From Kitasatospora sp. MAP12-44 (GTDB taxonomy: Bacteria; Actinomycetota; Actinomycetes; Streptomycetales; Streptomycetaceae): a stretch of 64,000 nucleotides of DNA. The DNA lies in the NCBI RefSeq assembly GCF_029892095.1, contig NZ_JARZAE010000004.1, positions 7,316,001 to 7,380,000 of the forward strand, read 5' to 3'. Both the position numbers and the translations under genes were made by a program. This document shows, piece by piece, positions 59,703 to 64,000 of the stretch; the first letter of the stretch is position 1; every line of letters starts with the position of its first letter. A model generated the notes under the pieces. The model made no database searches. It saw only the letters and a program-made list of their open reading frames with translations, and was not told where the DNA came from.

Positions 59703-60848
59703 TTGACCTACGAGTTCACTGCTGTTCAACTGGGCGACATCGACGGGCTGTTGACGCTCTACCGGCAGGTCTACGGACGAAGCTACGCACTGCCGTTGGG
59801 CACCGATCCCGAGGTGATGGCCCGGGAGATCTCCTCCCCCCGCACGACCTGGCTGGTCGTCAGGGAGCCCGGCAGCGGCCGGGTGGTCGGCTCCATCCTT
59901 GGCACGATCGACCCGCACGACCGGCTCGGCAAGATGCAGGGCCTGGTGATCCACCCGGACATCCGCGGCGGCGGCCTCGCCCACCAGGCGGTCCGCCGGC
60001 TCAGCGACATGATGCTGAGCGGCGACCAGGCCGCCGACTCCGTCTACGCCACCGCCCGGACCAACTCCACCGCGCCGCAGCGGATCTGCCTGCGCAGTGG
60101 CTTCCGGGCCCTGGGCGTCTTCCCCAATCTGCGCAAGGCGGAACGGCACGAGACCATGGTGCTGCTGGCCAGGCACCGGGACGGCGTCCTGGAGCGACGG
60201 CTGCCGGTCCCCCGGGTGCCGGCCGGCCTGGGCGGGCTGGTGCGCGCGCTGCACGACACGGTGGGTCTGTCGGACCAGCAGCTGCCCGCCGTCGACGACG
60301 AGCCGCGCCCGGCCCCGCAGCGCGGCCAGGTGCGCGAGGTGGAGCTGGTGGACGCCCCGCAGTTCGTGCTGCGCCGGCTGGCCGAGGTGGTGCCCGATCC
60401 CGAGCAGCGCTTCTACCCGTTCCACACGCCCAACGTGTTGCTGGCCGCCGCGGACGGTGCCTACGAGCTGTTCGCGCAGCTGAACCGCTCCGACGGCTAC
60501 TGCGCGCTGATCGGCGCCGCCCCCGGACTCGCCTCGCTGGCACGGGACTTCGAGGCGCTGATCGACCGCCTGGCCCAGGACGGCGCCTCGCACATCGAGA
60601 CCCTGCTGCCGCTGGACTGCTACGAGGACCTCAGCCTGCTGCTCGCGCACGGCTTCCTGCCCGCCGCCGCCTACCCGGCGATGCGCCGCGAGGGCGAGGG
60701 TTTTCGCGACTACGTGGTGATGGCCCGCAGCATGCAGCCACTGGACTTCCGCGGCCTGTCCATCGACGCGTCCTTCCAGCCCTTCACCGAGCAGTACATC
60801 GAGCTGTGGAAGCAGCGGTACCTCAACACCCATGGGGTTTTCCAGTGA
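59703..60848 (+). CDS. Two-domain GNAT-family protein, first gene of the LuxE/LuxC cluster
   Basis: The product is 381 aa from TTG 59703, preceded by GGGGAGG. Residues about 1-150 are a GNAT N-acetyltransferase domain, with the acetyl-CoA motif GLVIHPDIRGGGLAHQA and NSTAPQRICLRSGF typical of the family. Residues about 180-380 form a second, diverged GNAT-like half (DGASHIETLLPLDCYEDLSLLLAHGFLPAAAYPAM). Its stop overlaps the LuxE start (GTGA). It probably acylates the same substrate that LuxE/LuxC handle, but the acceptor is unknown. Confidence 0.75.
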   Translation: MTYEFTAVQLGDIDGLLTLYRQVYGRSYALPLGTDPEVMAREISSPRTTWLVVREPGSGRVVGSILGTIDPHDRLGKMQGLVIHPDIRGGGLAHQAVRRLSDMMLSGDQAADSVYATARTNSTAPQRICLRSGFRALGVFPNLRKAERHETMVLLARHRDGVLERRLPVPRVPAGLGGLVRALHDTVGLSDQQLPAVDDEPRPAPQRGQVREVELVDAPQFVLRRLAEVVPDPEQRFYPFHTPNVLLAAADGAYELFAQLNRSDGYCALIGAAPGLASLARDFEALIDRLAQDGASHIETLLPLDCYEDLSLLLAHGFLPAAAYPAMRREGEGFRDYVVMARSMQPLDFRGLSIDASFQPFTEQYIELWKQRYLNTHGVFQ

Positions 60849-62017
60849 GCCAGTACCTCAACCCGGTCCAGGTCCCCGATCCCGTCGCACTCGCCCAGGT
60901 GCAGCGGCTGTGCGACATCGCCGAGCCGTACACCGTGGGCGAGGACGCCGACCGGCTGTTCGTCGCCGCGATGGCGGAGTCCAACGCCTGGCACGCGGCC
61001 AGGTCGCCGTTCTTCGCCAGGCTCTGGGAGTCGAGTGAGGCCGCCCGATGTCCGGTCGAATCGGTCGCCGACCTGGAGCGGCTGCCCTTCGTGCACGCCA
61101 ACTTCTTCAAGACGCACGAGGTGGTCTCGATACCCCCCGAGGACGTCGCGCTGCACGTCACCTCCTCGGGCACCACCGGCCAGAAGTCGCAGATGTTCTT
61201 CGACGACTGGACCCTGCGCAACGGCCAGCGGATGGTGGCCCGGGTCTTCGACTCCTACGGCTGGCTGGGCGAGGAGGAGCCGGTCAACTACCTGCTCTCC
61301 AACTACCAGCCCCGGCCCGGGCTGAACCTGGGCACCGCGTTCACCGACGAGTACCTGTGCGACTTCGCCCCGGTGCGCTCGGTCGAGTACGCCCTCAAAC
61401 ACACCGGCAGCGGCCACGAGTTCGACGCGTTCGGCTGCGTGCGGGCGCTGCTGCGGTTCGCCGAGGAGGGGGCGCCGGTGCGGATCCTCGGGTTCCCCGC
61501 GTTCCTCTCCTTCACGCTCGACCGGATGCGTGAACTCGGGCTCCCGCCCGTTCAGTTGAACCCCAAGTCGCTGGTCGCCTTCGGCGGCGGCTGGAAGGGC
61601 CACGCCGACCAGCAGGTGGCCAGGCCGGAGCTCTACCGGCGGATCCACGAGCAACTGGGCATCCCGGACGAGCGGATCAGGGACGGCTACGGCGCGGTCG
61701 AGCACTCGGTGCTCTACATGGAGTGCGCCAACCACCGCCTGCACGTGCCCACCTGGTCGCGGATGCTGGTGCGCGACGTGCGCACGCTCGCGCCGCTGCC
61801 CTACGGTGAGCGCGGCTACGCCCAGTTCGTCTCGCCCTACATCACCTCCGTGCCGGCCCAGTCCGTCCTGATGGGCGACCTGGTCTCGCAGCACTCCCCC
61901 GAGGAGTGCGGCTGCGGCCTGCCCACCCCCTGGTTCGCCGTGCACGGCCGGGCCGGGGTCAGCCGGAACCGCAGCTGTGCCGTCGCCGCCGCCGAACTGC
62001 TCAAGGGGAAGTCATGA
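60845..62017 (+). CDS. LuxE-type acyl-protein synthetase
   Basis: The product is 390 aa from GTG 60845, overlapping the GNAT stop. HVTSSGTTGQKS is the ATP-binding motif of the LuxE branch of adenylate-forming enzymes, and NFFKTHEVVS and GYGAVEHSVLYMEC are further family motifs. LuxE activates a fatty acid as acyl-AMP and transfers it to a cysteine for reduction by LuxC. No luciferase (luxAB) is visible. The following gene starts at ATGA overlapping its stop. Confidence 0.88.
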   Translation: MSQYLNPVQVPDPVALAQVQRLCDIAEPYTVGEDADRLFVAAMAESNAWHAARSPFFARLWESSEAARCPVESVADLERLPFVHANFFKTHEVVSIPPEDVALHVTSSGTTGQKSQMFFDDWTLRNGQRMVARVFDSYGWLGEEEPVNYLLSNYQPRPGLNLGTAFTDEYLCDFAPVRSVEYALKHTGSGHEFDAFGCVRALLRFAEEGAPVRILGFPAFLSFTLDRMRELGLPPVQLNPKSLVAFGGGWKGHADQQVARPELYRRIHEQLGIPDERIRDGYGAVEHSVLYMECANHRLHVPTWSRMLVRDVRTLAPLPYGERGYAQFVSPYITSVPAQSVLMGDLVSQHSPEECGCGLPTPWFAVHGRAGVSRNRSCAVAAAELLKGKS

Positions 62018-64000
62018 CCGCCGATCAGCACTACTGGCAGGGCGAGTGGGTCGACGACGCCGAGGCGGAGCGCCGCCTCGACGATCTCGACGCCCACGTC
62101 GCCACCGCGCTCGCCGACAGGCTCAACCCGCTGACCGTGCTGGCCGCCTGCGACCGGCTGGCGATCGCGCTCGCCGACCCGGCCGGCGCGCAGTCCGTGC
62201 GCCTGTTCGCCGAGCTGCGCGCCGCGCGGATCCCCGCGGGGGAGGCCGCCCGTACGCTGACCGACATCGCCGAGGGGCTCTCCCGCGAGGCGCTGGAGGC
62301 CAAGCTGACCCGTGAGCTCGGCGGCATCGACCCGGGCCGGCTGGCCCGCTTCGACTTCCGTCGGGAGATCTTCGAGGGCTGGCTGCCGGTGGGCCTGCTG
62401 GTGCACGTCGCGCCCGGCAACGCGCCGGCCGCAGGCGCGTTCAGCGTGATCGAGGGCCTGCTCGCCGGGAACGTCAACGCGATCAAGACCAGCGGCAGCT
62501 CACGCTTCACCCAGCTGCTGCTGGCCGCGCTCGCCGAGCTCGATCCGACCGGCACGATCGCCACCCGGGTGCTGGTGCTCGCCTTCCCGTCCAGCCGGAC
62601 CGGCTGGCTGGAGCGGCTGTGCGCGGGCGCCGACGCGGTGGCCGCCTGGGGCGGCGAGGAGGCCCTGGCCGGGGTCGCGGCGCTGGTGCCGGCCGGCTGC
62701 CGGCTGGTCGACTGGGGGCCCAAGCTCTCCTTCGCCTACCTCACCGAGCACTCCTGGGCCGAGCCGTCGGCGCTGCGCGGCATCGCCGACGACATCTGCC
62801 GGCTCGACCAGCAGGCGTGCTCCAGCCCGCAGGTGATCTACCTGGACACCGACGACACCGAGCAGGTCTTCGCCTTCGCCGAGCGGTTCGCCGCCGTGCT
62901 GGCGCAGACCGTCGCCGAGCTCGACCCGGCGCTGCCGGACCTGCTGGAGAGCGCCGAGATCACCAACACCGTGCTGGTGGCCGGGCTGGAGGAGCACCTC
63001 GGCCTGACCCGGGTGCACGCGGCCGAAGACGGCAACTGGCACGTGCTGGCGGACGTCCGCAGCGCGCTGCGGGCCTCGCCGCTGTACCGCACGGTGTGGG
63101 TGAAGCCGCTGCCGCGCAAGGAGATCGTCCAGGTGCTGCGCCCGATGCGCCGCTACCTGCAGACCGCCGCGATCGGCGCCGAGCGCGCCGATCTGGCGGT
63201 GCTCGCGGGGGAGGTGCTGACCGCAGGCGTGCTGCGGGTCACCGTGCCCGGCCGGATGCTGGACAGCTACGACGGCGAGCCGCACGACGGCGTGTACGCA
63301 CTGCAGCGCTACAGCCGCCGGGTGGACGTGCAGCTGGACGAGCGGTTCGCCACCGACTCCTGCCTGGACGACCTGGTGGGCGCGCGCGAGCTGGCCGTCC
63401 CGTCCGTCCCGGTCACCGGCAAGACCGAGTTCGAGCAGCTGCAGGACGACCTCGGGCGCGCCGAGGTGTTCTTCCGCAGCGGCGGCAGCTCGGGGGCGCC
63501 CAAGCTCTCCGCCTTCGCCTGGGACGACTACCACGAGCACATGCGCTCGGGAGCCGAGGGCCTGCTCGCCGCCGGGTTCGACCCGCGCACCGACCGGGCG
63601 ATGAACCTGTTCTTCGGCGGGCAGCTCTACGGTGGCTTCCTGAGCTTCTTCTCGGTGCTGGAGACCCTGCAGGCCGTGCAGTTCCCGATGGCGGCGCAGG
63701 ACGACCACGCGGCCGTGGCCCACTCGATCGTCGACCACCGGGTGGACACTCTGTTCGGCATGCCGAGCTACCTGCTGCGGGTCTTCACCGAGGGCGCGGA
63801 CGCGCTGCGCGGCTACCGCGGGGTGCGCAAGGTCTACTTCGGCGGCGAGCACTTCCCCGAGCGCCAGCAGGCATGGCTGCGCGAGGAGTTCGGGGTCGAG
63901 CTGATCCGCTCGGCGGCGTACGGCAGCGCCGACGCGGGCCCGCTGGGCTACCAGTGCGGCGAGACCCCGCCGCGGGTGCACCACCTGTTCAGCGGGCTCC
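62014..64000 (+). CDS. LuxC-type acyl reductase fused to an adenylate-forming domain (3' end outside window)
   Basis: The gene starts at ATG 62014, overlapping the LuxE stop, and continues beyond the window; about 662 residues are visible. Residues about 1-440 are LuxC, an NADPH-dependent acyl-CoA/acyl-enzyme reductase. The catalytic Cys269 lies in RLDQQACSSPQ, and LLVHVAPGNAPAAGAF is a family segment. From about residue 480 a second domain begins: FFRSGGSSGAPKLSAFAW is an AMP-binding motif like that of LuxE or phenylacetate-CoA ligases. So one polypeptide joins acid activation and reduction to an aldehyde, beside a separate LuxE. The substrate is unknown. Confidence 0.85.
   Translation, partial: MTADQHYWQGEWVDDAEAERRLDDLDAHVATALADRLNPLTVLAACDRLAIALADPAGAQSVRLFAELRAARIPAGEAARTLTDIAEGLSREALEAKLTRELGGIDPGRLARFDFRREIFEGWLPVGLLVHVAPGNAPAAGAFSVIEGLLAGNVNAIKTSGSSRFTQLLLAALAELDPTGTIATRVLVLAFPSSRTGWLERLCAGADAVAAWGGEEALAGVAALVPAGCRLVDWGPKLSFAYLTEHSWAEPSALRGIADDICRLDQQACSSPQVIYLDTDDTEQVFAFAERFAAVLAQTVAELDPALPDLLESAEITNTVLVAGLEEHLGLTRVHAAEDGNWHVLADVRSALRASPLYRTVWVKPLPRKEIVQVLRPMRRYLQTAAIGAERADLAVLAGEVLTAGVLRVTVPGRMLDSYDGEPHDGVYALQRYSRRVDVQLDERFATDSCLDDLVGARELAVPSVPVTGKTEFEQLQDDLGRAEVFFRSGGSSGAPKLSAFAWDDYHEHMRSGAEGLLAAGFDPRTDRAMNLFFGGQLYGGFLSFFSVLETLQAVQFPMAAQDDHAAVAHSIVDHRVDTLFGMPSYLLRVFTEGADALRGYRGVRKVYFGGEHFPERQQAWLREEFGVELIRSAAYGSADAGPLGYQCGETPPRVHHLFSGL

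Follow-up and report, generated by a model that had tools for sequence, protein, structure and literature searches.

A LuxC–PaaK fusion in Kitasatospora belongs to a compact gene set that probably makes leupeptin-type peptide aldehydes without a non-ribosomal peptide synthetase

The 64,000-nucleotide stretch of the Kitasatospora sp. MAP12-44 genome analysed here (G000:C4:7316001-7380000, hereafter the window; genome of 9.04 Mb in 4 contigs) ends within a gene set centred on a fusion of a LuxC-type reductase with a PaaK-type adenylating ligase. The set opens with a two-domain GNAT N-acyltransferase (59703..60848, plus strand, 381 residues, TTG start), followed by a stand-alone LuxE-type acyl-protein synthetase (60845..62017, plus strand, 390 residues, GTG start) and by the fusion, of which residues 1-662 lie in the window (62014..64000, plus strand, ATG start at 62014). 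Both joints, between GNAT and LuxE and between LuxE and the fusion, are 4-bp overlaps. The fusion frame continues past the window to G000:C4:7380326 in this assembly (L003:8015-10327), and a free PaaK-type ligase of 428 residues, ~31-34% identical to the fused PaaK domain, is encoded on the opposite (minus) strand 0.6 kb past the window end (L003:10593-11879). An earlier reading, made by a model from the letters of the window and its open reading frames (ORFs), had recognized the fusion, the separate LuxE immediately upstream and the presence of more than one activating enzyme, and our analysis bears out all three; this sequence-only reading missed the GNAT upstream and the second PaaK downstream.

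The reductase domain of the fusion (62239..63318, plus strand) matches Pfam LuxC over residues 76-435 with an E-value of 4.7e-86, and its nucleophile Cys269, located in the motif QQACSSPQ, aligns with the DQQAC motif of the LuxC structure 7xc6_A. The adenylating domain starts at residue 485 (63466..64000 in the window, plus strand) with the P-loop SGGSSGAPK at residues 489-497, containing the GGSSGAPK motif previously noted near residue 490, and matches the Pfam AMP-binding family over residues 553-688 (E=7.1e-8). PaaK-type NCBIfam models match over residues ~484-720, all far under their cut-offs; the phenylacetate-CoA (coenzyme A) ligase equivalog TIGR02155 scores 33.8 bits with the window's frame and 42 bits with the free PaaK against a cut-off of 646.3. 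The long-chain LuxC and LuxE equivalogs are not reached either (NF052251, 91.8 bits against 750; NF052244, 67.6 bits against 550). The structural model of the whole fusion was of moderate confidence (pLDDT 74.4, pTM 0.45) and was therefore used for domain folds and not for domain arrangement. Its LuxC half has 7xc6_A as best fold match (Z 26.0, root-mean-square deviation 7.2 over 428 residues) and its PaaK part matches 4r1m_A (Z 23.0, root-mean-square deviation 5.6 over 362 residues).

We aligned 38 copies of the fusion, comprising 28 loci from a pattern scan of GTDB species genomes with the fusion protein, which reaches close relatives only, nine loci added later (L041-L048, L050) and the window's own copy. 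All 38 carry the LuxC Cys269 and the PaaK P-loop in a single frame, with no sign of two genes joined at about 63400, and the C-terminal part is PaaK by sequence and fold rather than an extended LuxC; the two outcomes that would have undone the sequence-only reading did not occur. Asp703 and the P-loop glycines of the fused PaaK domain are kept in every copy, and Lys826 in 36 of 38, the exceptions being L023, which runs into a contig end, and the frameshifted copy of the window, described below. We take these motifs to have their usual roles in PaaK-fold ligases, as P-loop, ribose-binding Asp and catalytic Lys. The C-terminal end of the fused domain, with Lys826, is of PaaK type and not of LuxE type. 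The fusion of Streptomyces sp. CB01881 (L022:9862-12792) shows an apparent internal duplication, its residues ~178-244 being matched twice.

The partner proteins also retain their presumed catalytic features. LuxE matches its Pfam family (E=3.4e-21) and, in a phmmer search, the LuxE structure 7xc6_E; its C-terminal Cys378 is present in 36/36 copies and aligns with the C-terminal Cys of lux-cassette LuxE, which presumably carries the acyl group. The GNAT (Pfam Acetyltransf_1, E=1.6e-6) keeps Arg88 of its presumed CoA-binding loop in 37/37 copies. Its homologue from Kitasatospora mediocidica (L005) gave a confident model (pLDDT 89.9), whose N-terminal domain resembles amino-acid (phosphinothricin) and N-terminal acetyltransferases (Z 12-13, up to 13.3), and the second-ranked Foldseek match is the tandem GNAT of the clavulanic acid pathway. 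The free PaaK has Asp292 in 38/38 copies and Lys418 in 37/38, L029 ending at a contig end. An unrooted tree separates fused from free PaaK by a single branch (SH-aLRT 100), and we therefore consider them long distinct. The nearest solved PaaK structures include NatL2 and AjiA1, which we take to be CoA-free AMP-ligases.

The four genes recur together. The 28 scan loci belong to the actinomycetes Kitasatospora, Streptacidiphilus, Streptantibioticus, Streptomyces, Kutzneria, Crossiella, Allokutzneria, Solihabitans, Lentzea and Amycolatopsis, and to metagenome-assembled genomes (MAGs) labelled Bdellovibrio, Bacteriovoracaceae, Proteobacteria, Elusimicrobia, Marinilabiliales or simply 'bacterium'. 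GNAT, LuxE, fusion and free PaaK all lie within the fetched stretch at 25 of these loci, which span Actinomycetota and the MAGs labelled Bdellovibrio, Bacteriovoracaceae and Proteobacteria; at L012-L014, which are among these 25, some 3-9 kb separate the free PaaK from the fusion. GNAT is present at 27 of the 28 loci, the remaining one (L023, Marinilabiliales) lying at a contig edge. We rejected the possibility that L025 (Elusimicrobia) and L026 (an unnamed bacterium) lack LuxE, which sits on other contigs of both genomes. Wherever GNAT, LuxE and fusion are all present (35 rows), the fusion comes immediately after LuxE, and in 33 of these rows the three genes are spaced by at most 60 bp, mostly with 4-bp overlaps; the exceptions are L022, where the start is poorly placed, and a Salmonella set with the order LuxE–fusion–PaaK–GNAT. 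Across 31 loci the four proteins diverge in step, their pairwise identities correlating at r=0.90-0.97, as would be expected for a unit inherited together, shared host ancestry contributing to the values.

The distribution of the fusion is patchy. It occurs in 25/70 genomes of the window's genus (E<=1e-80), 11 of them at 76-100% identity and 14 at 56-59%, and in 23/199 genomes of a second genus of the same family (that of G455), where one genome matches the LuxC part only and another has an internal stop. An even sample of the phylum yielded it in 2/396 genomes, one being the window's own, and Bdellovibrionota in 1/58, that one being the source of the query. What had looked like an isolated oddity is the norm within a family of patchy occurrence. 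An MFS exporter lies in or beside the set at 12 of 38 loci, and a second subfamily forms the tight operon PaaK–MFS–GNAT–LuxE–fusion. One gene downstream of such a five-gene operon, on a plasmid of Streptomyces sp. NBC_00158, are three consecutive genes with an I36-family peptidase-inhibitor annotation (L050:11232-12599), the first of them also examined with Pfam. Two Salmonella enterica plasmids carry LuxE, fusion and PaaK, with GNAT on the first and without an annotated GNAT on the second (L048:5656-11414, CP054717.1; L049:5656-10533, CP053580.1). Both are typed as conjugative, and recombinase and toxin–antitoxin genes are nearby.

An unfused relative occurs on plasmid NZ_CP109155.1 of Streptomyces europaeiscabiei (L051:886-9344), where a LuxE–LuxC pair follows a cluster resembling those for ribosomally synthesized and post-translationally modified peptides (RiPPs), with a YcaO protein, a nitroreductase, an MBL-fold protein and an MbnB/TglH/ChrH-type enzyme. 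This LuxC is 47.7% identical to the LuxC domain of the fusion and falls within the fused clade, though this placement depends on a long branch. The presence of the pair in a RiPP-like cluster suggests that this LuxC branch handles peptides, and the product of the cluster may be a ribosomal peptide that ends in an aldehyde. Plasmid-borne unfused LuxE–LuxC pairs are also found in Lactiplantibacillus (L067:1875-5272), with an SDR oxidoreductase, and in Azospirillum (L068:3468-8537), with ABC transporter genes; these are other uses of LuxC and LuxE with no annotated light genes alongside.

Gene content, domain identity, the conservation of catalytic residues and co-occurrence are all direct observations; from them we infer the substrates, the order of the steps, which ligase makes which bond, and the product. 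We propose that the region is probably a compact operon, free of non-ribosomal peptide synthetases (NRPSs), for an N-acyl-peptide aldehyde of the leupeptin type, in which LuxE and LuxC reduce a peptide acid. Leupeptin is acetyl-Leu-Leu-argininal; making it takes an N-acetyltransferase, the formation of two amide bonds and a reductase that uses ATP and NADPH to reduce the carboxylate at the end of the chain. An NRPS-free leupeptin pathway fits because the set comprises a GNAT, two AMP-ligases, a LuxE/LuxC pair and, at many loci, an exporter. Older work on cell-free leupeptin synthesis in Streptomyces reportedly described an acetyltransferase, an ATP-dependent acid synthetase and an ATP/NADPH-dependent reductase, which would fit. 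That the product is leupeptin itself is considerably less likely than membership of the class. The I36 inhibitor genes downstream of the NBC_00158 operon offer a supporting hint for a peptide aldehyde.

In the proposed pathway, the GNAT would acetylate an amino acid (leucine in leupeptin), and the free PaaK would adenylate the N-acyl amino acid and couple it to another free amino acid. The fused PaaK domain would then attach the final residue, which in leupeptins is arginine or lysine, yielding the peptide acid. LuxE would adenylate this acid, load it onto its own C-terminal Cys and hand it to Cys269 of LuxC, which, with NADPH, would convert the thioester into the aldehyde; the fusion would couple final ligation to reduction. 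Export of the product would fall to the MFS pump, which is encoded beside many family members and not beside the window's copy. We read the fused adenylation domain as an amide-forming ligase rather than a second feeder of LuxC because LuxE keeps its Cys and because the GNAT and the second PaaK belong to the set. The sequence-only reading had suggested a specialised aldehyde-forming pathway, which these comparisons support, with activation of either two acids or an acid and an acceptor. The latter option stands, as a PaaK enzyme can join an acyl-AMP to an acceptor, and the idea of a second acid feeding LuxC gives way to an amide-forming ligase, which would fit better.

The copy in the window could instead belong to a set that is decaying into pseudogenes and no longer functions in this strain, a possibility compatible with the proposed function of the family and one that we regard as unlikely but substantial. 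Relative to K. mediocidica, whose intact fusion is 97% identical over its first 720 residues, two extra bases are found at ~G000:C4:7380152-7380153, 152-153 bp after window base 64000. The window's frame goes on past the window end as far as this lesion, which is not at the LuxC/PaaK junction, and stops at 770 residues, versus ~838 in intact relatives; the last ~125 residues of the ligase, including the catalytic Lys826, are out of frame. Between the two species, silent codon differences strongly outnumber the others ahead of the break (60 against 18 in 712 codons) and still exceed them after it (7 against 4 in 125 codons), so the lesion is either recent or a sequencing or assembly error, and the other three genes are open.

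Turning back to the peptide-aldehyde pathway, PaaK-family ligases such as NatL2, AjiA1 and BagE/FevW can make esters or amides without a carrier. It is improbable that the set serves another small-molecule pathway, in which PaaK would turn aromatic or other acids into an ester or amide in the manner of BagE/FevW and NatL2, the GNAT would acylate an amine and LuxE/LuxC would produce a non-peptide aldehyde. The free PaaK does match the NCBIfam model for BagE/FevW (E=8.5e-13; 48 bits, cut-off 800), and its K. mediocidica homologue matches the NatL2 sequence at 4e-13, but both matches are distant and plain PaaK enzymes are equally near. Clustering of predicted ORFs at the 28 loci revealed no flanking family, apart from MFS, in more than a few loci; with no widely recurring family besides the pump, the substrates should therefore come from primary metabolism, as amino acids do. 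Just as improbable is that the fused PaaK, and not LuxE, loads the LuxC active site, leaving LuxE another job: physical fusion to LuxC speaks for this arrangement, but it is at odds with the invariant C-terminal Cys of LuxE, with the LuxE gene directly preceding the fusion wherever the three genes stand together, with the PaaK-type end and Lys826 of the fused domain and with the long separation of fused and free PaaK.

Finally, we give a still smaller chance to a lux-like fatty-aldehyde pathway, in which LuxE and LuxC would reduce a fatty acid and the PaaK parts would be acyl-CoA ligases feeding the same or a second fatty acid, since the LuxC and LuxE families with an active Cys in both, and PaaK relatives that in the libraries are mostly CoA ligases, are set against a tandem GNAT and two distinct PaaK groups as regular members, a nearest luciferase-family gene ~95 kb off with no lux gene among the flanking ORFs scanned, a LuxC tree that puts the fused domains far from lux-cassette LuxC, via very long branches, and an unfused LuxC relative that with its LuxE in a RiPP-like cluster suggests peptide substrates.

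The surroundings of the window's set agree with the earlier remark that no luciferase is near. The genome has 26 matches to the Bac_luciferase family, a family with many non-luciferase members that occurs in 10/14 control genomes, and the nearest is at G000:C4:7476795. No lux gene, luxD included, was recognized among the flanking ORFs scanned with Pfam, luxD not having been searched genome-wide. The ketosynthase, acyl carrier protein, aminotransferase or oxidase genes that the sequence-only reading expected downstream, as well as NRPS genes, are absent from the 10 flanking ORFs of the window's genome in a Pfam scan, one of these ORFs having no match at all; an eleventh flanking ORF scanned in the same way is none of the four kinds expected downstream. 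Beyond the free PaaK lie, at L003:12178-16773, genes for a riboflavin synthase-like protein (Lum_binding), a nicotinamide mononucleotide transporter, lumazine synthase, PRA-PH and HisG. Riboflavin genes are known beside some lux operons; we treat these neighbours as a coincidence and not as a lux-like context, because K. mediocidica, with its nearly identical fusion, has different flanks. A role in known anti-phage defence was also rejected, as PADLOC returned 0 families for five proteins (four from L005 and the MFS protein from L041) at E<=0.01.

Several observations weigh against the peptide-aldehyde proposal. No MFS gene lies beside the window's copy, nor, by the same test, at 25 other loci of the 38. 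The window's fusion is without Lys826, so this copy may be inactive, as a pseudogene or through an assembly error. Sequence comparison does not separate amide-forming from CoA-forming PaaK, plain PaaK being as near as NatL2. The Salmonella GNAT is short (294 residues) and only 22% identical to that of K. mediocidica. The likeness to the leup pathway of Xenorhabdus, Photorhabdus and Klebsiella, set out below, is drawn from descriptions and not from a comparison with the characterised LeupA-D proteins; in addition, the published leupA and leupB primers do not match the Salmonella set, and the Salmonella fusion has no DNA match in E. coli genomes.

Leupeptin is a widely used protease inhibitor that came first from actinomycetes (Aoyagi et al. 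1969, as cited in PMC11212599). In a 2023 paper, Streptomyces leupeptin is grouped with NRPS-made aldehydes and contrasted with the gammaproteobacterial route (PMC10548850). If the operon does make leupeptins, a non-NRPS route would be common in actinomycetes, and genome mining based on NRPSs would miss it; a LuxE/LuxC pair would be at work in peptide chemistry without light, and four or five genes would form a toolkit for peptide aldehydes. NRPS-free leupeptin-type synthesis is itself a known kind of pathway, and the interest here lies in its occurrence in actinomycetes and in candidate genes for actinomycete leupeptins. We give somewhat less than even weight to a wider proposal: that the classical actinomycete leupeptins, together with relatives not yet reported, come from this operon family, whose role has gone unrecognised; that the two Streptomycetaceae subfamilies (fusions ~57% identical; four-gene islands versus a five-gene operon that includes a pump) yield distinct N-acyl-peptide aldehydes with no NRPS involved; that LuxC–PaaK finishes and reduces the chain; and that the unfused LuxE/LuxC puts an aldehyde end on a ribosomal peptide. 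Independently of the rest, the two subfamilies may differ in product. We found no literature joining LuxC, LuxE and PaaK, and a partial sampling of the literature contained no report of leup-type operons in actinomycetes, which Li et al. 2020 may mention.

Among known systems, the leup pathway resembles the set most in outline, its available descriptions giving four genes and a transporter, discrete AMP-ligases, an aldehyde-making reductase and no NRPS. In Xenorhabdus bovienii, according to PMC11212599, which cites Li et al. 2020 (Angew. Chem.), leupeptin is made without an NRPS, by separate AMP-dependent ligases and a reductase; the major leup products in Klebsiella are given as leupeptin and a Lys analogue in PMC11480411. 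We expect an N-acyltransferase in that pathway from the acetyl group of leupeptin and not from the gene assignment in Li et al. The leupABCD cluster of strain CAV1374 has four genes in 5,831 bp with an adjacent transporter, according to PMC8283571, and the Salmonella set covers 5,759 bp, a weak likeness. Unlike leup, the set described here occurs in actinomycetes and other phyla with a gene order that varies between lineages, and the window's copy is frameshifted, lacks a neighbouring pump gene and has its free ligase on the other strand.

The lux fatty-acid reductase (LuxC–LuxE–LuxD; 7xc6) shares the LuxC and LuxE families, the Cys nucleophiles and presumably the thioester hand-over, whereas here LuxC is fused to PaaK, and instead of LuxD and luciferase there are a GNAT and a second ligase. 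NRPS-made peptide aldehydes of actinomycetes include antipain, chymostatin and MAPI, and livipeptin is made by an NRPS-like protein with a tRNA-using enzyme (PMC10548850). The predicted product class is alike, that of capped peptide aldehydes, but the chain would here be built by discrete ligases, no NRPS being recognised in the flanking ORFs. NatL2, AjiA1 and BagE/FevW share with our ligases the PaaK fold and the A-motifs; what sets the enzymes of the present set apart is their predicted role in peptide-bond formation and the fusion of one of them to LuxC.

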